Shown in pieces: positions 391 through 52,716 of a DNA stretch of 64,000 bases. The DNA is from Ornithodoros turicata (lineage: Eukaryota > Arthropoda > Arachnida > Ixodida > Argasidae). The stretch's first letter is position 1, and each line of letters begins with the position of its first letter. The notes under the pieces are model-generated. The model was not told the DNA's origin, did not search any database, and saw only the letters and a list, made by a program, of their open reading frames with translations. The translations under genes were made by a program, and so were the position numbers. The stretch spans positions 90,892,668-90,956,667 of the forward strand of contig NC_088203.1 in the NCBI RefSeq assembly GCF_037126465.1, written 5' to 3'.

Positions 391-2116
391 CTATGCACTT
401 GAGCGCTCACTCGCGGCCCTAAACAGTCGACCTGGGTTATCTACGGTTTTGGGTGCCCGATCCCCGCATGAAAGTCTCTTTGCGCTGCGTGCCTTGGTCA
501 CGTTCCTGTATGAAATTGGTGCCGACGATAAGTTTTGACTTTCGTGCCTCTGTTTCCGTTTCTTTTTTCTTTTCTTTTTTTTCTTTTTGACTGCTGTGAC
601 TTTGTGTGACCCATCGTATCTGACAGTTTGCTCTCCCAGTGTCTATTGTACGTTCATGGGTCCAGAGTTGTTTACGCGGTATGGCGTAGCCGACTTCCAT
701 GTTGGTGCTGCCAATTTTCTCCATCTTTTTCTTTTTCACTCACTCACTCACCGTGGCAGTTCACGTCATCAGCTTCCTGGCACTCCTTGAGCAACATTGG
801 TGGGTGAACCCACTAGGATATTCAAGCTCACTAGTTCTAGTTCCGGTTCACTTTAGCCAAACTGAAGTCGTATTTATTTTCGTTGATTCTGTGTGTGCTT
901 CACATGGACTCCAAGGTCGTCGTTGACAGCAGAGACAATGACAAAAAAGAAAAAAACTTTACGTGACAGTAAATGAATTCACTTAGACGATCGCTTAAAA
1001 AGCATGACAAAAGATTCCTGCGCGATATTGCCCGTTGTGTTCGGAAGTCCGCCGGCGCCAAAGGAAGTACGCCTCTTCCGCCTCTCCGCGACTGCTACTA
1101 TTGGCTGGATGAAGAGGGCTTCCGGATCCGTGCTCGATGGCGGCAGCAGGGAGCGGCTGTCGAAGAGTGGCTGGGAACGCCGCCCAACCGTCGCTTTGCG
1201 TCTGGGACGACGCGGCGCCGCATTAAGAAATGCATGCGTGAACAAGTCTTTAGTACTTGCCTAGGATAACGTGAATGTCATGTGTTCACGAGAGGGTGTG
1301 TGTGTGTGTGTGTAAGATTTTAGGAAAAATCTCCATTTCATTGACCATATTCATTATATTGCGCGCATTTCGGGTCAAACACCTAGGCTTCAATGCATTT
1401 TGTTCCTTTTGCACTCAGTTTTCAAAGGCGTAATGCCTTCAGTTGTGCACATGTTCACTGTTTACGTTCGCTCTGTTTTTTATGTTTTTTTCTGTTCTTT
1501 CTTCCTCTTATTTCTGTACCAGTTCTGCATACATCATAGGATCCCGCCAGAGTGTGCGATTATTCAGCTTTAGGTTTGTGTTCTTCATTTTTCTTTTCCT
1601 TTTCTTTCCTTCTTTTTGTTTTCTTTTGCGTTCTTCTTTTCTTTGCCTTTTTTGTCTTCCCCCTTTCACTTCTTTTTTTAATAACAAGCCGGCGTCCATC
1701 TGGCTTACCTTTCCTTTCTTTTTTTTCTTAATAAACATATCCCCCCCCCCCCCGGGAAAATTAAAACTCTCCGCCTCTGCCGCAAGCGATGCTGCCCAGA
1801 CGACCGTTTTACGGGTCGCGCATTCCAAGACACGGCCCGCCCGGCGGCGGACCGCGTTAGTGTATCTTCAGAGAGGAGGAATGACATGCAGTATAGCTCC
1901 AATGGAAGGAGAGGAGAGGAAAAGAGCGTGCGGAGGTCGCGTATCATTGGTAAATTCGTGAGTGTTCAGGTACCACTCCCGCAGAACAATACTGGATCAT
2001 CAAAGGATCATCCATTCTATCCATTGTTACGTCATTTGAACAATTGTAGCACCCAATCAGACTCCAACGGGGGGGGGGGGGGACATAACGTTCTGCACTA
2101 CACTCTTAAAAATGAA
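391..2116. other. Unassigned stretch with simple repeats
   Basis: No gene can be supported. It holds a T-rich tract near 560-590, a GC-rich island at about 1020-1230 that is open in several frames on both strands, a (TG)n run at 1296-1313, a pyrimidine-rich tract at 1480-1735, C13 at 1741-1753 and G14 at 2069-2082. Open frames such as 973-1269 (+) and 1508-1828 (-) have compositionally biased translations and no recognisable motif. Confidence 0.5.
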
Positions 2117-11139: not shown

Positions 11140-11237
11140 ACACTGAACGCTGCCCCCAACGACTCCAACATACTTCCTGCGGAAGTTGAAGACATCGGGT
11201 AAGAGCAGATTGGACGCAGCGTAGCAACAACGTCTAT

Positions 11238-11837
11238 ATGGAACGTCTGAAGGAGAGAAAGCAGTATCGAACAGCAGCCACTAAAACACGGAATGAAGCT
11301 GACCATGAGATGCAGCAAACGCCGCCGAGTCACGAGCGTCTTGTCAGCCTTCATCGGCAGCTACAAGATATACAAGTACGTCTACGCGAAATCGACAATC
11401 AGATAAAGCCATTGCTGGCCGACGAAGAGTTTGACAGGGAAATCGAAACGATGATACAGTACGACTCGGAAATTACGGATGCTGTTGCGCGACTCGACTA
11501 CAGAATCAACGATGGCCAAGCTAGTAATACAGGCGTAGCAGACAACAGGACAACGTTAGCTGCACCTCGCTCAGCGTCCGATCGACAACCAAGGGTGCCA
11601 AAGCTCGAGCTACCAAAGTTCGACGGCTCCTTGGACAAGTGGCTTCCATTTTGGACCGCGTATGAGGTAGCAGTGCACGATAACAGCTCACTGACCACGA
11701 AGGAGAAATTCTGCTACCTTTCCTCACTTCTGACCGGGAATGCTGCAGCACTCGTTAAGGGCCTCAACCTGCAAGAGGACTGCTACTCCGATGCAAATTG
11801 TTACTTCGCAGTGAGTTTGGCTCCAAAGAGAGGATGA
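11238..11837 (+). pseudogene. BEL/Pao gag, N-terminal part
   Basis: A 199-codon frame starting at the first ATG after the primer-binding region. The N-terminal 95 residues are charged and coil-like (LHRQLQDIQVRLREID). They lead into a PKLELPKFDGSLDKW motif at about residues 118-132, which is the start of the conserved Pao gag region (DUF1759-type), followed by FWTAYEVAVHDNSSLTTKEK. The frame runs out at about 11800, where the continuation moves to another frame; this implies an indel of a few bases. The product would be the structural capsid protein of the retrotransposon particle. The break makes it non-functional as read. Confidence 0.8.
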
Positions 11838-12853
11838 TACCGCACCATATTAACAGGCTGACCGACATGCCGTTGGTGAAGACGCAACATGACTATGGAA
11901 GCTTGAGGCGAATGCATAACAAAATTCCGACGAGCATCCGAAGCCTCAACGCAATTGGACTGACCGTCGATTCGTACTGTGCATTTTTGTGTCCTATAAT
12001 TCTCCGGAAGCTTCCTGCCGAACTCGTTACTACTTATCACAAGAAAATGCTGAAGAGCAAAAGAAATAGCAGCGGGACCACTGCACAGCAGTCTTCCACT
12101 GGCGCCGGCACCACGGCTGATCCTTCCCTTTCTGTAACCGACTATAGACAGGCACTGGAGGACTTGATGACTTTAATCCGCCTTAGAGCGGAGTCACAAG
12201 AGCTTGCTCAAGGTACCCTAAAATCCGTCGATGAATCGTCCACATCTGGAAGAAAAGCATATACGGCTTCTGGATCAACAGCCACTGCATTGACCACGAG
12301 CACCGACCGTCCGGATGCGCGCCAGTATGGCCCGCCGATAAAGGAGCCCTGTGTGTTCTGTGAATCAGAGCAGCATGACGCGATTGACTGCGATGGGAGC
12401 ATGACATTGCAAGAGAAGCGGAGCAAGTTAATGTCCGCACATCGATGTCTTCGGTGTACAAAGAGAAACCACATCTCAAGTCGCTGCAGATCGAGATTAG
12501 TCTGCAAGACGTGTTCACGACGGCACGCGACCACGCTATGTGATCCAGATCGGCTTCCAACCAACGACAAACATGCGCCAGCATCACACGGGGTTACAGG
12601 ATTGACTATGAATATGGACGTTTCCGATAGCGTTCATATCAATTCAGAAGCGACCATGACAATGGGCACCAATGGAACTAGCGTCGTGAATGACAGGAAG
12701 CTGGTATTGCTACAGACAATTATGGCCACGGTTGAAGGGAAACAGCGGTGTCGAAGAGAGAGAGTTTTATTCGACACCGGCAGCCAGCGTAGTTTCATCA
12801 CAGTCAAGCTGTCTGGTCTGTTGGAATGGACCACCTGGGCTATGAAGACTTAA
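11798..12853 (+). pseudogene. BEL/Pao gag C-terminal part with zinc knuckles and protease start
   Basis: A 351-codon frame that continues the gag after the first frame change. About residues 1-85 are the rest of the Pao gag domain. Zinc-knuckle cysteines follow: PCVFCESEQHDAIDC at about 12346, then CLRCTKRNHISSRC and CKTCSRRHATTLC. The frame then enters a retropepsin-type protease with LFDTGSQRSFI at about 12768-12800 (catalytic D-T-G). A further frame change near 12830 moves the protease to the next frame. Gag would bind element RNA through its knuckles and the protease would mature the polyprotein. Confidence 0.8.
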
Positions 12854-13439: not shown

Positions 13440-14250
13440 CTGGATGAATTTCAGAGAGGAATCAAGCTTATAGACGGTCACTATTAAGTTCGGCTGCCAC
13501 GGAAACTGGATGATAACAAGAGGAATGCAATGAGTAGATTGAAGCGGCTTGTGCAACATCTCCAACAAGATCAACACAAGCTTGAGATGTACGACAATGC
13601 AATAAGGCAGTACTTGCGTGATGGCTCAGCAGAGAAGGTTCCTGAAGTGTCAACGGGAGACAAGCGAACGACAGTATTTTACCTGTCGTTTTTACCGCAT
13701 CATGCCGTGATTCGCGAAGATAGAGTTACAACCAAGTGTCGCATAGTATTTGACGCGTCGTCGCATGGACGCGGAAGCAAAAGTCTAAACGACGCCCTTC
13801 ATGCTTGCCCGAATCTAGACCCCGACATACTTACCCTGCTGCTTCAGTTTCGTTGTAACGAAATCGCTATGACCGCGGATATTGAAAAGGCCTTTCTGCA
13901 AATTCGAATAGCCCCGGACGATCGCGACGCACTCAGGTTTCTATGGTTCAAGAATATACCCAGACGCGACAACTGCGAGACAGGCATGGAAACTTGGAGG
14001 ATGACACGAGTGACCTTTGGCACGAAACCGAGCACATTTTTACCTGCTGCCACGTTACAGCATCACTTCAAAGTTATGGCAGCAGAGTATCCAAAGATAT
14101 GTGCGAAGATCAAAGATTCTATCTACGTAGATGACCTGCTGACAGGTGCTGACACAGAAGAAGAAGCCAAGATTCTATACGCGGAGGCTAAAACGCTTTT
14201 TCAAAGGGGAAACCAGAAATTTGGAGCAGGTATCGCAATTTTTTGCCTGG
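13440..14250 (+). pseudogene. BEL/Pao reverse transcriptase, truncated
   Basis: The region opens with VLDEFQRGIKLIDGHY and, after one stop, continues as RLPRKLDDNKRNAMSRLKRL, the lead-in to the Pao reverse transcriptase. Motifs seen in order: FYLSFLPHHAV, TKCRIVFDASS, MTADIEKAFLQI (first catalytic Asp), a degraded LRFLWFKNIPRRD, and SIYVDDLLTGADTEEEA (YVDD catalytic pair, near 14120-14160). The frame then runs into unrelated T-rich DNA before the thumb and RNase H. The catalytic residues are intact although the gene is truncated. Confidence 0.85.
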
Positions 14251-14577
14251 AAGAGGCTGCATTAATACAGCTCCTTATTTTTATTTTCTTTTTAATGTAT
14301 AATAATCGCTTCTTAGTTTAGCGAAGAATACACCACCGGGTATATTGATAATGCAGAATTTAATGCAGATGAATTTAATGTGGAGAGTTAAGAGTGGTCG
14401 CTGGTCTCGGTCGTTTTCACATTGCGCAGACCTGTTCGAATATTATAAAGCCTTTCCCATAGCGAAGTCGTACAAATACAGGGTAACTTTAACGTTTTCG
14501 ATTAGTTTTCGAAATAACAATACAATTGTTCTCGAAATCATTTTAGAAGTAGTCATTTCGTCTTTTTGGTGGGGCTC

Positions 14578-18008: not shown

Positions 18009-18214
18009 TTAATACATTAATATCTGTCGGATTTTCTCATCTTTACTTCGTACTCGTAACGACCTCGATAGACGACCCCAAGGCAATGGTATCGGCATCC
18101 GCACCCAGACTATACCACACCGACTTAGTGCGGTCTCCATGCATTTCGCATTGAAATGAAGTTGGGCGCGAGTAAAAGTTATCCAGGAGGAACGTTCAAA
18201 AGTCGTCGGTACAC
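18009..18214 (-). CDS. Candidate exon 2 of small secreted basic protein
   Basis: On the minus strand a strong 3' splice site, CTGCCCTCCTTGTGCTTCAG, ends at 18215. It opens a frame of 67 residues plus stop (TAA, ending at 18009). Joining at this acceptor preserves the reading frame of the exon at 18653-18728 (phase 1). The encoded part is basic (about 10 Arg and 3 Lys against about 4 acidic residues), has two cysteines ten residues apart (KC...RC) and ends in a charged tail RSKDEKIRQILMY. No domain is recognised. The 3' end could instead continue through another donor, so the C-terminus is uncertain. The exon may be a chance frame; the matched phase and acceptor quality are the support. Confidence 0.35.
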
Positions 18215-18652
18215 CTGAAGCACAAGGAGGGCAGTCGCACTGAAACATACAGATTTATCTCTACGCAATGTTGACACGAAAGAAAACAAAGTCAGTTCTC
18301 CTCTGCTTTCAAGATTGGACTACGTCGCAATCAAATAAAGTCTCTCGACGCATTCTCTTCTTAAACGTGCCAATGAAAACAAAGGTCGACGTTGTGACTC
18401 TGCCAGTAGCAAAACCGAATAACTATTGACTGCACGCCAGAAAGAGAGGGTCGCGGCGCAAACAGCAGCCTGCAAAAGAGTTAAGAAGGGGGAGATGGGA
18501 GAGCTTTGGGAGCATTATGGAAGTTCTTTTTGTTCCGAGTTTCACATCCAAATATGAAATGTTCGGCATTTTGAAAATGTCGCGACACTTTTTTCACTCA
18601 AAAGCCAGTTGGTGGAGAGATTTGTTTGTTTGTTTGCACTGAGCTTACTCAC

Positions 18653-18728
18653 CTTGTAACGGGGGCTCCCCATTGATTACCAGAGAGAAGAAGAACAAGA
18701 AGAGCAGAGTTAGCGGGAGTAGCATCAT
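18653..18728 (-). CDS. Candidate first coding exon: signal peptide
   Basis: The minus strand reads ATGATG, then 23 more codons ending in a consensus splice donor G|GTGAGTAAG. The peptide starts MMLLPLTLLFLFFFSLVING, a textbook hydrophobic signal sequence with a likely cleavage after ...VING, followed by EPPLQ. The exon has 76 coding bases and ends in phase 1. Together with the exon at 18009-18214 it would give a 93-residue precursor and a mature basic peptide of about 73 residues. The 71-bp satellite starts about 375 bp upstream of this start codon. A weak TTAAAAG lies about 70 bp upstream; no clear TATA box is seen. The family is unknown. Confidence 0.45.
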
Positions 18729-19103
18729 CCCTGTCGGTCGTCCCCTGGTATTGGGCGACCGCGTGGCCGGCGCCGCATCGAAATCCACGTTTTTCTTTTA
18801 ACTCTGTTCGTCGGTATGGAAGTGGAGCAACATGTTAGACGATCAGGCTCGCTGCTGTGCTGGTGGCTCCACCTCCGAGACACACGTCGGGTTAGAATGA
18901 TACCCGCGAAATTCGCTTCATGCGGTATGGACAGCTATCGATGAAAGAATTGTAGGTATTTACCCAAGAGTTTCATCAGGGCGGGAGGCGAGGATTAGTT
19001 TCTGAAACCCATATCTGCCGGCTTCTGGCTTTTTCTTTCATTGCAAGACATTTGGGAGTACCACCAACAGCAATGACGAGTCCATAACGATTGGTTACTT
19101 GAT

Positions 19104-22100
19104 GATCATGAGGAATTTCAATGCGGAATTTTCACATCAAGAACAGTCAAAATTACGTGGAACCGTGCGTGGGCTGTGAGATTTGTCGATCATGGGGAAT
19201 TTCCACTTCCAGAGCAGTCAAAATTACGTGGAACTGCAGGTGGGCTGTGAGATTTGTCGATCATAGGGAATTTTCACATCAAGAACAGTCAAAATTACGT
19301 GGAACTGGGCGTTGGATGTGAGATTTGTCGATCATGGGGAATTTCCACTTCAAGAGCAGTCAAAATTACGTGGAACTGCAGGTGGGCTGTGAGATTTGTC
19401 TATCATGGGGAATTTCTATTTCAAGAACAGTCAAAATTAGTGGAACAGCAGTAGGCTGTGAGATTTGTCGATCATGGGGAATTTCCACTTCAAGAACAGT
19501 CAAAATTACGTGGAACTGCAGGTGGGCTGTGAGATTTGTCGATCATGGGGAATTTCCATCTCAAGAACAATCAAAATTACGTGGAACTGCAGGTGGGCTG
19601 TGAGATTTGTCGATCATGGGGAATTTCCACTTCAAGAACAGTCAAAATTACGTGGAACTGCAGGTGGACTGTGAGATTTGTCGATCATGGGGAATTTCCA
19701 CTTCAAGAACAGTCAAAATTACGTGGAACTGCAGGTGGGCTGTGAGATTTGTCGATCATGGGGAATTTCCATCTCAAGAACAGTCAAAATTACGTGGAAC
19801 TGCAGTAAGCTGTGAGATTTGTCGATCATGGGGAAGCTCAGTTTCAAGAACAGTCAAAATTACGTGGAACTGCAGGTGGGATGTGAGATTTGTCTATCAT
19901 AGGGAATTTCCATTTCAAGAGCAGTCAAAATTACGTGGAACTGCAGGTGCGCTGTGAGATTTGTCTATCATGGGGAATTTCTATTTCAAGAACAGTCGAA
20001 ATTACGTGGAACTGCAGTAAGCTGTGAGATTTGTCGATCATGGGGAAGTTCCATTTCAAGAACAGTCGAAATTACGTGGAACTGCAGGTGGGATGTGTGA
20101 TTTGTCTATCATGGGGAATTCCTATTTCAAGAACAGTCAAAATTACGTGGAACTGCAGGTGGGATGTGAGATTTGTCGATCATGGGGAATTTCCACATCA
20201 AGAACAGTCAAAATTACGTAGAACTGCAGTAGGCTGTGAGATTTGTCGATCATGGGGAATTTCCATTTCAAGAACAGTCAAAATTACGTGGAACTGCAGG
20301 TGGGATGTGAGATTTGTCTATCATGGGGAATTTCTATTTCAAGAACAGTCAAAATTACGTGGAACTGCAGGTGGGCTGTGAGATTTGTCGATCATGGGGA
20401 ATATCCACATCAAGAACAGTCAAAATTACGTGGAACTGGGCGTGGGCTGTGAGATTTGTCGATCATGGGGAATTTCCACTTCAAGAGCAGTCAAAATTAC
20501 GTGGAACTGCAGGTGGGCTGTGAGATTTGTCTATCATGGGGAATTTCCATTTCAAGAACAGTCTAAATTACGTGGAACTGCAGGTGGGATGTGAGATTTG
20601 TCGATCATGGGGAATTTCCACTTCAAGAACAGTCAAAATTACGTGGAACTGCAGGTGGGCTGTGAGATTTGTCGATCATAGGGAATTTCTACTTCAAGAA
20701 CAGTCAAAATTACGTGGAACTGCAGGTGGACTGTGAGATTTGTCGATCATGGGGAATTTCCAATTCAAGAACAGTCAAAATTACGTGGAACTGCAGGTGG
20801 GCTGTGAGATTTGTCGATCATGGGGAATTTCCATCTCAAGAACAGTCAAAATTACGTGGAACTGCAGATGGGCTATGAGATTTGTCGATCATGGGAAATT
20901 TCCATTTCAAGAACAGTCAAAATTACGTGGAGCTGCAGGTGGGCTGTGAGATTTGTCTATCACGGGGAATTTCCACATCAAGAACAGTCAAAATTACGTG
21001 GAACTGGGCGTGGGCTGTGAGATTTGTCGATCATGGGGAATTTCCATTTCAAGAGCAGTCAAAATTACGTGGAACTGCAGGTGGGCTATGAGATTTGTCT
21101 ATCATGGGGAATTTCTATTTCAAGAACAGTCCAAATTACGTGGAACTGCAGTAAGCTGTGAGATTTGTCGATCATGGGGAAGTTCCATTTCAAGAACAGT
21201 CAAAATTACGTGGAACTGCAGGTGGGATGTGAGATTTGTCGATCATGGGGAATTTCCACTTCAAGAACAGTCAAAATTACGTGGAACTGCAGGTGGGCTG
21301 TGAGATTTGTCGATCATGGGGAATTTCCATCTCAAGAACAGTCAAAATTACGTGGAACTGCAGTAAGCTGTGAGATTTGTCGATCATGGGGAAGCTCAGT
21401 TTCAAGAACAGTCAAAATTACGTGGAACTGCAGGTGGGATGTGAGATTTGTCTATCATAGGGAATTTCTATTTCAAGAACAGTCAAAATTACGTGGAACT
21501 GCAGGTGGGCTGTGAGATTTGTCGATCATGGGGAATTTCCAAATCAAGAACAGTCAAAATTACGTGGAACTGGGCGTGGGCTGTGAGATTTGTCGATCAT
21601 GGGGAATTTCCATTTCAAGAGCAGTCAAAATTACGTGGAACTGCAGGTGCGCTGTGAGATTTGTCTATCATGGGGAATTTCTATTTCAAGAACAGTCGAA
21701 ATTACGTGGAACTGCAGTAAGCTGTGAGATTTGTCGATCATGGGGAAGTTCCATTTCAAGAACAGTCGAAATTACGTGGAACTGCAGGTGGGATGTGTGA
21801 TTTGTCTATCATGGGGAATTCCTATTTCAAGAACAGTCAAAATTACGTGGAACTGCAGGTGGGATGTGAGATTTGTCGATCATGGGGAATTTCCACATCA
21901 AGAACAGTCAAAATTACGTAGAACTGCAGTAGGCTGTGAGATTTGTCGATCATGGGGAATTTCCATTTCAAGAACAGTCAAAATTACGTGGAACTGCAGG
22001 TGGGATGTGAGATTTGTCTATCATGGGGAATTTCTATTTCAAGAACAGTCAAAATTACGTGGAACTGCAGGTGGGCTGTGAGATTTGTCGATCATGGGGA

Positions 22101-24915
22101 ATATCCACATCAAGAACAGTCAAAATTACGTGGAACTGGGCGTGGGCTGTGAGATTTGTCGATCATGGGGAATTTCCACTTCAAGAGCAGTCAAAATTAC
22201 GTGGAACTGCAGGTGGGCTGTGAGATTTGTCTATCATGGGGAATTTCCATTTCAAGAACAGTCAAAATTACGTGGAACTGCAGGTGGGATGTGAGATTTG
22301 TCGATCATGGGGAATTTCCACTTCAAGAACAGTCAAAATTACGTGGAACTGCAGGTGGGCTGTGAGATTTGTCGATCATAGGGAATTTCTACTTCAAGAA
22401 CAGTCAAAATTACGTGGAACTGCAGGTGGACTGTGAGATTTGTCGATCATGGGGAATTTCCAATTCAAGAACAGTCAAAATTACGTGGAACTGCAGGTGG
22501 GCTGTGAGATTTGTCGATCATGGGGAATTTCCATCTCAAGAACAGTCAAAATTACGTGGAACTGCAGATGGGCTATGAGATTTGTCGATCATGGGAAATT
22601 TCCATTTCAAGAACAGTCAAAATTACGTGGAGCTGCAGGTGGGCTGTGAGATTTGTCTATCACGGGGAATTTCCACATCAAGAACAGTCAAAAGTACGTG
22701 GAACTGGGCGTGGGCTGTGAGATTTGTCGATCATGGGGAATTTCCACTTCAAGAGCAGTCAAAATTACGTGGAACTGCAGGTGGGCTGTGAGATTTGTCT
22801 ATCATGGGGAATTTCCATTTCAAGAACAGTCAAAATTACGTGGAACTGCAGGTGGGATGTGAGATTTGTCGATCATGGGGAATTTCCACTTCAAGAACAG
22901 TCAAAATTACGTGGAACTGCAGGTGGGCTGTGAGATTTGTCGATCATAGGGAATTTCTACTTCAAGAACAGTCAAAATTACGTGGAACTGCAGGTGGACT
23001 GTGAGATTTGTCGATCATGGGGAATTTCCAATTCAAGAACAGTCAAAATTACGTGGAACTGCAGGTGGGCTGTGAGATTTGTCGATCATGGGGAATTTCC
23101 ATCTCAAGAACAGTCAAAATTACGTGGAACTGCAGATGGGCTATGAGATTTGTCGATCATGGGAAATTTCCATTTCAAGAACAGTCAAAATTACGTGGAG
23201 CTGCAGGTGGGCTGTGAGATTTGTCTATCACGGGGAATTTCCACATCAAGAACAGTCAAAAGTACGTGGAACTGGGCGTGGGCTGTGAGATTTGTCGATC
23301 ATGGGGAATTTCCACTTCAAGAGCAGTCAAAATTACGTGGAACTGCAGGTGGGCTGTGAGATTTGTCTATCATGGGGAATTTCCATTTCAAGAACAGTCA
23401 AAATTACGTGGAACTGCAGGTGGGATGTGAGATTTGTCGATCATGGGGAATTTCCACTTCAAGAACAGTCAAAATTACGTGGAACTGCAGGTGGGCTGTG
23501 AGATTTGTCGATCATAGGGAATTTCTACTTCAAGAACAGTCAAAATTACGTGGAACTGCAGGTGGACTGTGAGATTTGTCGATCATGGGGAATTTCCAAT
23601 TCAAGAACAGTCAAAATTACGTGGAACTGCAGGTGGGCTGTGAGATTTGTCGATCATGGGGAATTTCCATCTCAAGAACAGTCAAAATTACGTGGAACTG
23701 CAGATGGGCTATGAGATTTGTCGATCATGGGAAATTTCCATTTCAAGAACAGTCAAAATTACGTGGAGCTGCAGGTGGGCTGTGAGATTTGTCTATCACG
23801 GGGAATTTCCACATCAAGAACAGTCAAAAGTACGTGGAACTGGGCGTGGGCTGTGAGATTTGTCGATCATGGGGAATTTCCATTTCAAGAGCAGTCAAAA
23901 TTACGTGGAACTGCAGGTGGGCTATGAGATTTGTCTATCATGGGGAATTTCTATTTCAAGAACAGTCCAAATTACGTGGAACTGCAGTAAGCTGTGAGAT
24001 TTGTCGATCATGGGGAAGTTCCATTTCAAGAACAGTCAAAATTACGTGGAACTGCAGGTGGGATGTGAGATTTGTCGATCATGGGGAATTTCCACATCAA
24101 GAACAGTCAAAATTACGTAGAACTGCAGTAGGCTGTGAGATTTGTCTATCATGGGGAATTTCTATTTCAAGAACAGTCAAAATTACGTGGAACTGCAGTA
24201 AGCTGTGAGATTTGTCGATCATGGGGAAGCTCCATTTCAAGAACAGTCAAAATTACGTGGAACTGCAGGTGGGATGTGAGATTTGTCTATCATGGGGAAT
24301 TTCTATATCAAGAACAGTCAAAATTACGTGGAACTGCAGGTGGGCTGTGAGATTTGTCGATCATGGGGAATTTCCACATCAAGAACAGTCAAAATTACGT
24401 GGAACTGGGCGTGGGCTGTGAGATTCGTCGATTATGGGGAATTTCCACTTCAAGAGCAGTCAAAATTACGTGGAACTGTAGGTGTGCTGTGAGATTTGTC
24501 TATCATGGGGAATTTCTATTTCAAGAACAGTCAAAATTACGTGGAACTGCAGGTGGGCTGTGAGATTTGTCGATCATGGGGAATTTCCACATCAAGAACA
24601 GTCAAAATTACGTGGAACTGGGCGTGGGCTGTGAGATTTGTCGATCATGGGGAATTTCCACTTCAAGAGCAGTCAAAATTACGTGGAACTGCAGGTGGGC
24701 TGTGAGATTTGTCGATCATGGGGAATTTCCATTTCAAGAACAGCCAAAATTACGTGGAACTGCAGGTGGGATGTGAGATTTGTCGATCATGGGGAATTTC
24801 CACTTCAAGAACAGTCAAAATTACGTGGAACTGCAGGTGGGCTGTGAGATTTGTCGACCATAGGGAATTTCTACTTCAAGAACTGTCAAAATTACGTGGA
24901 ACTGCAGGTGGGCTG
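19104..24915. repeat. 71-bp satellite, about 82 monomers
   Basis: Monomers of 71 bp follow head to tail for 5.8 kb with only small divergence; some variants lack one base at the GCAGTA(A/G)GCTG position. Each monomer has GATCATGGGGAATTTCC, a CAAGAACAGTCAAAATTACG core and GTGGAACTGCAGGTGGGCTG. Because 71 is not divisible by three, an ATG inside each monomer reads through about three monomers in successive frames and stops at GCTGTGAG. This gives many overlapping 69-codon frames that are not evidence of coding. The array ends sharply at 24915 in unique sequence. Confidence 0.97.
22156..23859. repeat. Higher-order repeat: three copies of an 8-monomer (568-bp) block
   Basis: Diagnostic variants (GATCATAGGGAATTTCTAC, CCAATTCAAG, GATGGGCTATGAG, CACGGGGAATTTCC, CAAAAGTACG) recur at exact 568-bp steps, for example the ATAGGGAATTTCTAC variant near 22378, 22946 and 23514. 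A single related block lies about 1,700 bp upstream (20456-21020), and the neighbouring stretch 20024-20520 is almost identical to 21724-22220. The array therefore grew by recent unequal exchange of multi-monomer blocks. Confidence 0.9.
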
Positions 24916-30674: not shown

Positions 30675-31039
30675 ACCTTTAAAGGTGTGCGCTATGCACC
30701 TTCAACCTGGTTGCCTAACATTGCATCTCCAGGATGATATTTTACAAAATTTGGAAAGCATTACTAAAGATCAAGTGTCAGTGCAAATCTTGCTTTCATT
30801 ATGTCTTGGATATCGTAGGTACGAGCTAATTCATATATGCATCGCTATCGATAATCGAGCACGCGCAAGTGTCTACAATACTGTTGAACAATGTTGAGAT
30901 GTTGCAAGACTGAATTTTTGGAGGACAGACAACACTCGAGTAAAGAAAATTTGTGCGAAACCGTGCTCCATTATGATGTTACCAAAATTACATCTAAAAA
31001 GGCGTGCGCCATGCACGCTATTACACCTTTAAAGGTGTG
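30672..31039. mobile_element. 368-bp insertion with palindromic ends
   Basis: Both ends carry the perfect palindrome (CA)CACCTTTAAAGGTGT(G): 30672-30689 and 31023-31039. Immediately inside, GCGCTATGCACC and the complement of GCGCCATGCACG extend the inverted similarity. If TTAA (30679-30682 and 31029-31032) is the target duplication, this would be a piggyBac-type MITE. If the palindrome is part of the element, the type is unknown. It disrupts the Maverick-like polymerase relic. Confidence 0.65.
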
Positions 31040-31717
31040 AAAAGATTTAGAGTGTACACGGAGATTGTTTTTTCTCTCCCACAGGGTAATGTCTTCGTAA
31101 GTGACTGGAAAGCAGGGTGGCCAGTATGTTATGCGCATATCCGGATTCGAAGGATTCATGTATTTGCGGTATCTGACATAATCATTTGGTTTGTTCCTCA
31201 ACGGATGCCAGAGTGCCAGCACGCAATACTTGAAACACCCGTTTTCGTGATTCGGCGGTAGGTTGATGTTTCTGAGAGTCTTTGTTTTTCTTCTTAACCG
31301 TTCGGGAAGCTCGATCGTGCACCCAGTCCCCTTCCGTTTCAATCGCGTTAGTTTTAAGTTGACACGTTGAACGTCGCTTGAGGTGAAACCGGACCCTTCT
31401 CTGATATAACTTTCTATGCGTTGCGACGACTCTGCGATGGCACCATTTATCGCGTCTTCGATTTCGTGGTGGTTATGGGCCACTCTCATGTGCAGGTTCA
31501 CGTGAAGGAGATGAGAAGACAACCCGTCCTTAACCATGAGCGCCTTCGAGCATAGACACAATTTGAAAGGCATGGGGTAAGCTTCAAGAACGCGCGTGAA
31601 TACTGGAGCTATATGCTCGAAAGATCCAAAGAGTACCAAATCGTCGACGTTGTCGTCGCGCGGGGAACACTGAAGCGTGTACCTAGTAGCCATCCCCTCG
31701 AATGCCTCATCTGTCAC
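31040..31717 (-). pseudogene. Maverick/Polinton-like DNA polymerase B, N-terminal fragment
   Basis: An open minus-strand frame of about 225 codons. Recognisable blocks: a helical HEIEDAINGAIAESSQRIES, YIREGSGFTSSDVQRVNLKL ('I.RGSGW....V....L'), GTGCTIELPERLRRKTKTLR ('YI.LP..I..K.A.IN'), NGCFKYCVLALWHP ('.CF.W.VL.ALHP') and ITLWERKNNLRVH ('I..FE..N...VNVF'). This series defines the N-terminal domain of polymerases in Maverick/Polinton elements and related adintoviruses. The length without a stop suggests moderate age. The remaining polymerase parts lie downstream in pieces. The element is endogenous and dead. Confidence 0.65.
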
Positions 31718-31887
31718 AAAAAAAAGGAGTAACCGTCTCTCCGTTACGGATGGGTGGTTCTCTACGACGTGCCCTCGTAATTCAACGATTCTACGACCCT
31801 ACACGGGGTCATGGTCCCTTCAAAACTCTGGTATTGCATCTGGTGATCCACGTCTAACCTGTCAGAGGTTAAAATACTGAATGTTAT

Positions 31888-45242: not shown

Positions 45243-45373
45243 TGTTGGAACTCAAGGAGAGACAAAGAGAACCGACTGGTTTGACGACGAGAGCCCAACT
45301 GATTTATTTTCCGCGGCTACGAGGGCGCAAGATGATGAACGAGAATGATAATAGCACCGCTGAGGCTGCTACA
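45243..45373 (-). repeat. Gypsy-1 3' LTR
   Basis: 131 bp, TG...CA on either strand. In sense orientation (minus strand) it contains an AATAAA polyadenylation signal within GCGGAAAATAAATCAG. Seven substitutions against the 5' LTR. The polyprotein stop codon lies just inside it. Confidence 0.95.
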
Positions 45374-46499
45374 TGGCTCCCCCCTCAGCGTAGCGGTTGA
45401 CGAGATGAGGTAGCGGAGAGGCCCAGCGGACACGTCGTTGTTGAGGGGTGTGGCGGGGGCAAGTACTGGGGAGGATTGAGGAATCAACAGTCTGTGGCAG
45501 AACCTGGGGCGCGTCGACTTCGTCGTCCAGGAAAGCCGGTTTGAGTCGGTCGAGCGAGACCGTTTCCGTGCGGTTGGCTATTTGGACTGTGAAGTGCTCG
45601 GGGCCACGGGACACGACCAGAAAGGGTCCGTCGTACGGGGCCTGGAGGGCCTTGCGCACCCCGTCGTGACTGACAAAGACGTGGGTAGCCGTCTGCAGGA
45701 GAGGGTGCTGGTAAGACGGGCGGGCGCTAGATCCGGGGGGGGGGCGGGGCTGGAGGTCGGCAAGGCAGGTCCGTAGTCGCTCGACATAGGAAGTTATGTC
45801 AACTGGAGTGGTCGGGGCAGAAGGTGGGAAGAAGGCGCCGGGAATATGGAGCGTGGTCCCGTAGACAAGTTCAGCAGGGGTACATTGGAGGTCCTGCTTG
45901 ACGGTTGTTCGTAGCGACAGCAGTATAAGAGGCAGAGCTTCTGTCCAAGCTTCTGTGGTAGTGGCCTTGAGGGAAGTCTTAAGGCTTCGGTGGAGGCGCT
46001 CTACCATTCCATTAGCTTGGCGGTGGTATGCCGTGGTACGGGTCTTGTGTCCGCCCAGCAGGGCGGAGAGCTCGGCAAAAAGACGGGACTCGAACTGCCT
46101 GCCTCGATCCGTTGTAATGGTAGCGGGCGCGCCGAATCGGGCGACCCATGTCTGGACGAAGGCGGCTTCTACCGTAGTAGCGGAGATGTCAACAACAGGC
46201 GTGGCCTCCGGCCATCGAGAGAACCTGTCGATCATCGTTAGGACGTAGCGGAATCCATTTGACGGAGGCAGAGGGCCGACGAGGCCGAGATGTATGTGCG
46301 CGAAACGGATGTCCGGTTCAAGGACTTGACCAGGGTTCGAAGTCGTGTGCCGGGTGACTTTGGACTTCTGGCAAGCCTGACAGGAGCGAACCCAGCGCTT
46401 GGCGTCGCAGCGAATACCAGGCCAGATGTAACAGGAAGAAATTAGCTGTTGCGTGGCCCGGATACAGGGGTGCGCCACAGAATGGAGGTGATCGAACAC
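45369..46499 (-). pseudogene. Gypsy-1 integrase
   Basis: A 376-codon uninterrupted frame. Zinc finger: H..H at LHSVAHP and CQACQK. Catalytic core: FAHIHLGLVGPLPPSNGFRY, then TTDRGRQFES (second Asp) and HRQANGMVERLHR (catalytic Glu). In the first motif the residue expected to be the first catalytic Asp (DLVGPL) is Gly, from GGC in place of GAC at about 46284-46286, so strand transfer should be lost. The C-terminal domain (PYDGPFLVVSRGPEHFTVQI) is present. A TGA separates it from the RNase H frame. Integrase would insert the cDNA into the genome. Confidence 0.9.
45374..45386 (-). promoter_or_regulatory. Gypsy-1 polypurine tract
   Basis: GAGGGGGGAGCCA on the minus strand, directly before the 3' LTR; the expected primer for plus-strand synthesis. 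It overlaps the last codons of the integrase frame. Confidence 0.8.
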
Positions 46500-46529
46500 C
46501 GAGCGGCGTACTGCAGGGGGTAGGAATGG

Positions 46530-46982
46530 TCAAGGAGTGCCACAGGAAACGTCGCAGCAGATTGGGGTACGAGCTTCGGGGAAGGTTACGTCCTCAAGAA
46601 TCACGCTTGTCGACGCCGCTGACCGCAGGGACTTCAGTTCTTCGTCTTGGGCTTGAAGTTCGGCTAGCTGGTCAAGTGCAGGCGTCGCGGACGCAACGGC
46701 GGAGAGTTCTATGTCAACGCGGCTGACGGCGTCGGCGACGGGGTTGAGGGGGCCGGAGATGTGGCAGATGTCGGAGGTGAACTCTGCGATAAAGGCAAGA
46801 TGTCGTTGCTCACGACCGCAGTAGTTGGCTCCAGAAGAATGGAATGCGTAGACGAGCGGTTTGTGGTCCGTGAAGATTGAAAAAGCACGGCCTTTGAGGA
46901 AATGTCTGAAGTGCTTGACGCTAAGGTAAATTGCGAGTAGCTCCCGACTGAAGGTACTATAGCGCGTTTCCGGTGGACGCAA
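46530..46982 (-). pseudogene. Gypsy-1 RNase H and linker
   Basis: The frame starts RPPETRYSTFSRELLAIYLS and continues HFRHFLKGRAFSIFTDHKPL, the RT_RNaseH core of Ty3/gypsy elements with the TDHKPL block. It ends in the linker DQLAELQAQDEELKSLR. A stop separates it from the reverse transcriptase (GDSG then stop at about 47013) and another from the integrase (about 46530). The enzyme would remove RNA from the RNA-DNA hybrid. Confidence 0.9.
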
Positions 46983-47012
46983 CTTGCGGGAGAAGAATCC
47001 CAGGGGCTGCCA

Positions 47013-48271
47013 TCATCCAGAATCGCCTGATGTCCTCTGCTGGAGGACCGCGCCTACGCCTGTGGAGGAAGCGTCCACCATGAGGGCGATTGGAGCGCCA
47101 TGTACCGGGTGCACCAGCATGGTGGCGTTAGCAAGAGCTTCCTTGATGTTGGCAAATGCGGCAGAAGTGTCAGCGGTCCAGGACAGAGACGGGGTGGCGG
47201 AGCGCTTGATGGACAGGAACGATTCGAGTGGTCTTAATATCTCCGAACAGTGCGGGATGAAGCGGCGGTAAAAGTTTGTCATCCCCAAAAATGTCCGTAT
47301 CTGCTGCAAGTTGGCGGGTTGCGGAAAATCTATGATCGCTCGGATTTTGGATGGTAGAGGAGAAATGCCAGCTGAGGAAATGTGATGGCCCAAGAAGTCC
47401 AATTCGGGAACGGCGAACTCGCTCTTGTTAGCGTTGATTATTATGGCAAAATCGGTGAGGCGGGAAAATAGCTGACGCAGGTCGGCGTCGTGCTGTTCGC
47501 TGGTTGGACTGGCCACAAGAATGCCGTCGATGTAGGCATGGACACTTGGCAGGCCACGGATGACACAATCGATGAACCGTTGGAATGATTGAGCTGCATT
47601 ACGAAGGCCAAAGGGCATCCGTGGAAATTCGAAGAGCCCGAAAGGGGTTGTTATGGCCGTTTTGGGGATGTCTGCCTCGGCAACGGGGATCTGATGGTAT
47701 GCCCATATGAGGTCCAGGTTCGAGAATATAGCAGCGCCATGTAAGGATGCTGTGAAGTCATGGACATGGGGGATGGGGTACTGGTCGGGGATGGTAACGC
47801 GATTTAAGGCTCTGTAGTCCCCGCAGGGCGCCAGTCGCCGGTCTTCTTAGGCACCATGTGCAGCGCCGACGCCCAGCTTCTGGAGGATGGGCGGATGATT
47901 CCCATTTCCAGCATGTGGTCGAACTCCGCGTGTGCAATGGCCATCTTCTCCGGCGGAAGACAGCGGGGATGAGTGAAGACTGGGGGACCTGTGGTCTCGA
48001 TATGATGAACCACGCTGTGCTTCACGGGCCGGGTCCAGTCAGGAGGGCGAGGTAGATGCGGGAAGTCCCTCAAGATGGCGAGGAAGGGGTTGCTTGAGTC
48101 TTGGTAGAAGGCAATTCGAAGCGATTGCAAGGACGAACGTATGCCCGACACAGTGAGGCTGGTGGAGGAGTCTATGAGTTTGCGACGGCGCATATCGACG
48201 AGGAGATGGTGGTGGGTAAGGAAACGGCTCCGATAATGGGTTGGGTTACGTCGGCCACGAGAAAAATCCAC
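47013..48271 (-). pseudogene. Gypsy-1 reverse transcriptase
   Basis: Motifs in order: [31 protein letters not shown] (then a one-base deletion at about 47826 shifts the frame), [15 protein letters not shown] (first catalytic Asp), [47 protein letters not shown], and the connection domain ending [13 protein letters not shown]. The catalytic pair reads Y-I-D-G, with GGC where GAC is expected (about 47528-47530), so the second aspartate of the active site is lost. It needs both a frameshift and this substitution explained, so it is dead. Confidence 0.92.
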
Positions 48272-51549: not shown

Positions 51550-52716
51550 CTACATCCAGCCGGGCTCATTTTAGGGAAACGGCCCAACCAACAACTGATG
51601 GCGACAGGCGACTGTTGGCACTTCGTCGCCCATCTCTCTTTTTTGTCATGGACCGGCGTACAGGCGTTCGGTAACTCGTCGACACCGGCGCCGAGGTCAG
51701 CGTCGTCCAAAAATCGCAGAGTGACAAGAAGCGGCCGTCTTCCACCACCTCCCTTGAAGCTGCCAATGGAACATCAATCTCCACTTTTGGCGAGCATCTG
51801 GAAACCGTCGACTTTGGTTTGCGGCGAACCTTTCGGTGAGTGTTCGTCGTTGCCCAAGTTACACATGCCATTATTGGTGCCGACTTTCTCTCCCACTTTG
51901 TACTACTGGTGGACATGAGCAAGCGGCATCTCTTGGACACCAGGACAAGTCTCGCTGTACCAGGCTCTCCTTCTCCACCATCACTTCTGAGCCCTATGCT
52001 CGCACGTCCCAGTCCAAGATCCCATTTTGAAGCTATGGTCCGAAGCTTCCCCAACCTCTTACCATCGCCAAACTCTGAGCGCCCTGTGAAGCATGACGTC
52101 GTATACTATATCTCTACGACAGGACCTCCAGTGCACGCTCGACCCCGTCGTCTGGCTCGCGAGAAGCTTCGAGTTGCTCGTCAAGAGTTCCAGCATATGC
52201 TAGATCGCCGACTCATTCGACCGTCGTCCAGTAGTTGAGCTTCCCAACTCCGTCTTGTCCCGAAGGAGACCGGTGATTGGCGCCCGTGCGGCGATTACCG
52301 TGCGCTGAACAAGGCCACCACTCCCGACCGGTATCCACTGCCCTATCTCTGGGACTTCACAGCCAACCTTCACGGGACCATGCTTTTTACGAAGATAGAC
52401 TTTGTTTGGGCGTACCATCAAACCACAGTTGCTTCCGAAAGTATTCCGAAAACAGCGATCATCACACCGTTTGGTCTCTTTAAGTTCGTCCATATGCCCT
52501 TTGGTCTACACAATGCGGGCCAATCATTCCAGCCTTTCGTAGGCCAGATGCTCAGAGAACTAGACTTCTGCTTTGCATATCTGAACGACATTCTCGTCAC
52601 AAGCTCTTCAGAGGCAGAACACGAGCATCACCTACACCTTCTCTGTGAACGTCTTGATGCTCACAGCATTGTCAAAGTGTGAGTTTCCTGTCCCAGCGCT
52701 TGACTTCACGGGCCAT
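51550..52716 (+). pseudogene. Gypsy-3 protease and reverse transcriptase, first part
   Basis: Protease: LVDTGAEVSVVQKSQ at about 51678, then FGLRRTFR, a stop and VFVVAQVTHAIIGADFLSHF. Reverse transcriptase: ARQEFQHMLDRRLIRPSSSS, a stop, [34 protein letters not shown] (catalytic Asp present), PFGLFKFVHMPFGLHNAGQS and FAYLNDILVTSSS. The catalytic pair is Y-L-N-D, the first Asp being Asn. The frame is cut at 52716 by the insertion of gypsy-2 and resumes at 58059. Confidence 0.88.

Follow-up and report, generated by a model that had tools for sequence, protein, structure and literature searches.

A signal-peptide exon beside a single-locus minisatellite in Ornithodoros turicata is very probably the start of a Sidestep-like immunoglobulin receptor gene

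Sidestep (Side) proteins of Drosophila are immunoglobulin superfamily (IgSF) transmembrane proteins whose partners are the Beaten path (Beat) proteins. They are described in PMC9743010 and PMC5578738 as having five immunoglobulin (Ig) domains, a fibronectin type III (FnIII) domain, and a membrane span, with Ig1 binding Ig1 of Beat. PMC5578738 places one FnIII domain after the five Ig domains of the extracellular part, and its Side tree is rooted with similar proteins of the IgSF from the tick Ixodes, which form the outgroup. The tick gene analyzed here resembles the Sidestep family in its signal peptide and V-type Ig1, in an Ig2 with matches to Ig_3 and C2-set_2, and in having one or more additional Ig domains on the same strand. 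It differs from the full Sidestep architecture in that Ig1, Ig2, and one later Ig domain are all that was found in the sequence read; a second difference is the outgroup position that similar tick proteins take in the Side tree of PMC5578738. Papers that treat Sidestep-like genes of ticks or spiders appear to be few.

Promoters responsive to Relish/Dorsal are known from arthropod antimicrobial peptide genes. The signal-peptide exon described below also has kB-like motifs upstream, but the peptide once proposed for it is without a family match, and the mature part of that peptide is not coding-like. The HRAS1 minisatellite is reportedly the subject of a paper on NF-kB binding. Like it and other variable-number tandem repeats (VNTRs) with NF-kB sites, the array studied here has a short unit, lies near a gene, and carries a kB-like motif in most units; it differs from HRAS1 in organism, unit, gene, and position, and its motif is known from sequence alone. 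Promoter minisatellites or VNTRs with NF-kB sites exist in man, as stated in PMC8096271.

The window, that is, the whole stretch of 64,000 nucleotides that was analyzed, corresponds to C3:90892668-90956667 in a genome of 1.07 Gb and 379 contigs. A sequence-only reading of it had proposed a two-exon gene for a small cationic secreted peptide, lying next to a satellite rich in immune-type transcription factor sites. Our analysis leads to a different gene. The exon at 18653-18728 is very probably the first coding exon of a large minus-strand Sidestep-type IgSF receptor gene that lies beside a private minisatellite. The features are as follows, with window positions given as plain numbers.

18653..18728 (C3:90911320-90911395), minus strand: coding exon 1, signal peptide MMLLPLTLLFLFFFSLVINGEPPLQ, ending in phase 1
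18644..18652, minus strand: start of intron 1, GTGAGT donor, donor score 12.3
18652 leftwards out of the window to C3:90873559, minus strand: predicted intron 1, about 37.8 kb
C3:90873434-90873558, minus strand, left of the window: first half of Ig1 (Ig1a)
C3:90869549-90869750, minus strand, left of the window: second half of Ig1 (Ig1b)
C3:90866974-90867090, minus strand, left of the window: first half of Ig2 (Ig2a)
C3:90859309-90859515, minus strand, left of the window: second half of Ig2 (Ig2b)
C3:90843684-90843854, minus strand: later Ig domain, 54 bits to Ig_3
18009..18214, minus strand: second exon of the earlier reading, 68 codons to the stop; judged not coding, probably intronic
18729..19120, minus strand: 5' flank separating the start codon from the array, presumed to be the promoter region
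19121..24915, no strand: single-locus minisatellite, 71-bp monomer, about 82 copies

The earlier claim of a signal-peptide exon with a GTGAGT donor was borne out, and the exon is most likely real. It reads MMLLPLTLLFLFFFSLVINGEPPLQ plus one base and is followed directly by GTGAGT. When splice sites were scored with a simple matrix, its AAG-GTGAGT donor ranked first among the 5,023 minus-strand GTs in 84 kb. A strict search was made for leaders with an ATG start that were hydrophobic and cleavable and that ended at an (A/C)AG-GTRAGT donor. Exon 1 was the sole qualifier in the window, and none was found in 200 kb elsewhere on the same chromosome (20 pieces, 2 of which came from the window's left flank). 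Simulated sequences yielded 0.0 (order-1 Markov) and 0.025 (order-3 Markov) such leaders per 64 kb in 40 runs each. Since the 200 kb held no strict case and the Markov simulations almost none, exon 1 appears to exceed chance. With a looser donor, 4 leaders were found in the 200 kb, and simulations gave 0.33 to 0.35 per 64 kb; a leader-like sequence beginning MRRCACWRAFILFLLAVCSDATRF, with a looser donor, lies at positions 400-499 (minus strand) of C3:45000001-45010000. Leader-like exon ends in phase 1 with a donor score of at least 5 numbered three on the minus strand of 104 kb, exon 1 included. Of the other two, one is a simple stretch rich in Met, and one, weaker, runs antisense to a BEL retroelement. 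The search for signal-peptide exons extended rightwards as far as the right end of the window.

Among the alternatives, the one that survives best holds that a pyrimidine-rich stretch (CTAAC, then a TC-rich tract) has by chance been read as a signal-peptide exon and that the Ig gene has some other first exon. The DNA of the exon is TC-rich, and such DNA yields hydrophobic L/F runs. In addition, an earlier all-codon score, the training of which was partly misoriented, placed exon 1 below 98.9% of random open stretches, that is, as noncoding. Against this, a synonymous-codon score trained on ten Ig domains of this genome was coding-like for exon 1, with 0.7% of the random open stretches scoring as high, albeit over only 25 codons; the comparison set was made up of the 848 open 68-codon stretches present in all frames of 180 kb. 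The lack of a comparable case in 200 kb and the top rank of the donor likewise argue against chance, and phase, strand, and position all suit the Ig1 exon described below. We therefore regard a chance reading as unlikely.

The continuation of exon 1 was found to the left of the window. Acceptors on the minus strand were scanned, to beyond the left edge of the window, for exons that continue in phase 1, and Ig1a was located in this way. With its acceptor side at C3:90873558, about 37.8 kb from exon 1, this first half of an Ig domain reads VVRAQVDEEAKLPCDTSVSSDGSPATLTWTQNDSNAKSPFYT, and the Ig1b exon reads ...GLWNGEHW...DSGVYLCTVTF.... When exon 1 was joined to the four Ig exons (76+125+202+117+207 nt), the phases matched and 242 residues were read with no stop, although this agreement of phases is partly by construction, because the search for Ig1a was one for phase-1 exons and the acceptors of Ig1b and Ig2a were chosen from a few AGs so as to suit the frame. 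The joined N-terminus consists of a signal peptide, Ig1, and Ig2. Against Pfam, it scored 69.2 bits to Ig_3 (cut-off, 30), 58.4 to ig (21.8), 51.7 to I-set (23.7), and 39.1 to V-set (26), and Ig_2 and C2-set_2 were likewise above their cut-offs. Ig domains above curated cut-offs place the product in the immunoglobulin superfamily. Codon use scored higher than about 98% of random stretches for each of Ig2a, Ig2b, and the later Ig domain; Ig1a and Ig1b scored above 59% and 72%, respectively, and neither is clearly coding-like. Some of the splice sites are weak under the simple matrix (Ig1b acceptor, -2.2; Ig2a acceptor, -1.0; Ig1b donor, 2.6), so the exon borders may be off by a few residues.

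That some other secreted domain might lie between exon 1 and Ig1a was considered and rejected for ten peptides from this interval, none of which passed a Pfam cut-off. The minus strand there has 201 open stretches with 45 codons or more; eight of these were among the ten, one shortened from 171 residues to 160, and the remaining two were phase-1 candidates, of which 18009-18214 was one. A weak match to a Tc3 transposase was seen in one of the ten.

Searches of the whole genome with the joined Ig1-Ig2 sequence gave 97 matches at E values up to 10. Another locus, on the plus strand of C3, has the same four Ig exons in the same order at 46 to 57% identity:

C3:90337438, plus strand: query residues 1-43, 48% identity, E 3.67
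C3:90356170, plus strand: query residues 45-114, 46% identity
C3:90365107, plus strand: query residues 104-149, 57% identity
C3:90443002, plus strand: query residues 141-216, 53% identity

The weak match at 90337438 (E 3.67) was counted because its place and order fit. At this locus and at C3:93068660, Ig1 was read as starting at a phase-1 acceptor, at the same residue as in the window gene and 13 codons ahead of the LPCD cysteine. The shared phase-1 acceptor in all three genes requires an upstream exon that ends in phase 1, and exon 1 does so.

Assignment to a family was approached through structures in the PDB. Ig1 alone aligned with Sidestep IV (9nq2) in one stretch (residues 3-107 of 114 to residues 7-112; i-Evalue, 2.1e-6), and it also matched Sidestep VII and VI. 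Four of the 54 PDB matches of Ig1 at E values up to 0.01 were to Sidestep proteins (IV, VII, and two of VI); these matches are not exclusive to Sidestep, since other V-type Ig domains are among the 54. By whole-sequence E value, an entry for titin and one for a variable region-containing chitin-binding protein stood above Sidestep IV, which they outrank through summed domains. For the two-domain fragment, ranking by summed score put DCC, titin, and DSCAM first and Sidestep IV 29th among the best 60 of 147 matches. The Ig fragment had no match at E values up to 10 among 665 candidates from a large protein collection. No Ig3 to Ig5, fibronectin domain, or membrane span was seen in the sequence read, to C3:90852668 plus 1 kb beyond. 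A Sidestep-like identity is supported for the predicted product, as known here from Ig1, Ig2, and one later Ig domain. We use "Sidestep-like" rather than claim strict membership because tick proteins fall as an outgroup and the C-terminal half lies outside the sequence read.

If the signal-peptide exon does open the receptor gene, its phase-1 donor would be spliced to Ig1a at C3:90873558, across some 37.8 kb, and the gene, taking in Ig1, Ig2, and one or more later Ig domains, would extend leftwards to about C3:90843684. The N-terminus that it encodes would enter the secretory pathway, and the protein would presumably be anchored in the membrane with Ig1 displayed on the cell surface, where, by analogy with insect Sidesteps, it may serve as the ligand-binding domain. 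A role in guidance or adhesion would be expected of such a protein. What had appeared to be an orphan immune peptide would then become the start of a recognizable receptor gene.

On the other side of the start codon lies the array. The earlier description of a 5.8-kb satellite upstream of the start codon was correct as to a tandem array, which occupies 19121-24915 with a period of 71 and 81.8 copies (some monomers are 69 to 70 bp) and whose first base is separated from the start codon (18728) by 392 bases. It was not correct as to a genome-wide satellite. A 27-bp core searched with up to 3 mismatches had 81 matches in the whole 1.07-Gb genome, all in this array, and a 284-bp array query had 23 matches, solely here. 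A dispersed or many-locus satellite is rejected because every match falls at one locus; the array is a private minisatellite. Its higher-order unit is 568 bp, or 8 monomers, and one exact match of 1,188 bp at a lag of 568 bp suggests recent expansion. The array may have grown by unequal exchange in the 5' flank of the gene, with the kB-like motif copied along with the monomer. The 5' flank itself is unexceptional for this sequence, with a GC content of 0.44 to 0.51 and a CpG observed/expected ratio of 0.94 to 1.08 in 400-bp windows starting at 18601-18901. As a one-locus minisatellite beside a gene start, the array offers a simple test case for effects of repeat number on expression.

Most monomers do hold a kB-like motif or a near variant, as had been claimed. 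Exact GGGAATTTCC occurs 49 times in the array, and among 79 aligned units (cut from about 82; two of the cut pieces were double units), 48 have the exact motif, 53 fit GGGRNNYYCC, and 71 fit GGGRNNYYYY. In 100,000 shuffles of the monomer, GGGRNNYYCC arose in 0.47%, compared with 0.012% for the exact ten bases; these figures concern a single motif, which was chosen post hoc and exists in many copies through duplication. The roughly 80 immune-type sites of the sequence-only reading are present as motifs, but they are copies of one ancestral motif and not some 80 independent observations.

Such an array might respond to Rel/NF-kB and serve the gene beside it as an enhancer or decoy. Retention of GGGRNNYYYY in 71 of the 79 units, the position 392 bp from the start codon, and the NF-kB-site promoter minisatellites of man (PMC8096271) are consistent with this. 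The conservation pattern argues against it: identity to the consensus was 0.952 in the kB columns versus 0.954 elsewhere in the monomer, and 44 of the 71 ten-base windows were better conserved than the kB motif. A single motif was copied, moreover, and at a single locus. Selection on the motif is rejected because conservation in its columns does not exceed that in the remaining columns of the monomer, and the motif probably lacks a function. Nothing beyond the motif itself spoke for the proposed immune control by the array, and its columns were not preferentially conserved. On sequence grounds a regulatory role is possible, but unsupported, and we consider the enhancer or decoy improbable. A bolder form of the idea is that a private minisatellite of some 70 to 80 Rel-type sites at a Sidestep-like promoter would make a recognition gene of nerve or muscle subject to immune control through Relish/Dorsal, with a strength that would vary with repeat number between individuals; we think this highly doubtful.

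The two-exon gene originally proposed would splice 18653 to 18214 and encode a 93-residue cationic secreted peptide. Parts of this proposal held. The frame of exon 1 does join in phase to the acceptor at 18214, where the second exon starts, to give 93 residues; the acceptor is fair (score, 5.9; top 0.5% of 4,837 AGs); and the part after the presumed cleavage behind G20 is basic, with 12 K+R, 5 D+E, and 2 Cys. The coding status of 18009-18214 did not hold. Its synonymous-codon score was below 96.8% of the 848 random open stretches, and in the earlier all-codon score, with its partly misoriented training, it was below 91.4%. GC3 was 0.43, compared with 0.56 to 0.61 in the five Ig exons of the locus, and 68-codon open stretches are common here, as the 848 found in 180 kb indicate. 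The 93-residue translation had no match in Pfam and no relative in a large protein set; against the PDB it gave a single row, an irrelevant photosystem subunit at E 0.25. The nearest AATAAA/ATTAAA, the only one in the 2,500 bp scanned, lies 733 bp past the proposed stop. Because of its codon use, its lack of relatives, and the better, domain-backed continuation about 37.8 kb downstream, the gene model of a small peptide is unsupported and was rejected; such a gene is very improbable. The peptide most likely arose as an artefact, because the reading ended at the closest acceptor that fitted, and 18009-18214 is probably intronic and not coding. A signal-peptide exon far from the rest of its gene invites a false short gene model of this kind. 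Least probable of all is a short alternative isoform of the Sidestep-like gene ending in 18009-18214 as a truncated secreted product, by which both models would be true: the acceptor at 18214 could be used and would keep the frame, but the codon use there is noncoding-like and homologous support is lacking.

Several further observations were made in the same genome. Dense tandem clusters of Ig exons occur at C7:29.55-29.65 Mb (plus strand), C9:12.35-12.42 Mb (minus strand), and C9:13.59-13.67 Mb (plus strand), and the two C9 clusters look like mirror-image duplicates; we take the C7 and C9 clusters to be, possibly, shortened Dscam arrays of the chelicerate type. Two Ig domains at C2:28824746-28828163 recur at C103:477909-481327 with near-equal spacing and equal scores. 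The one is on a chromosome and the other on a small contig, and the pair is perhaps an unmerged haplotype copy.

Within the window, an Rfam scan at the gathering threshold and a tRNA scan returned nothing, and a 275-codon open frame at 30971-31798 (minus strand) had no Pfam match. Remains of a retroelement, presumably of the BEL/Pao type, lie at 11190-12853 and 13488-14321 (both plus strand), inside the predicted first intron of the receptor gene, and comprise a DUF1759 domain split over two frames and a reverse transcriptase. Other retroelement fragments, at 45369-47846 (minus strand) and 52239-52682 (plus strand), carry integrase, RNase H-like, and reverse transcriptase domains. At the left end, positions 1-194 form a 36/72-bp tandem repeat that is open on the minus strand and reads as repeats like VRNLTDEAVRPF.
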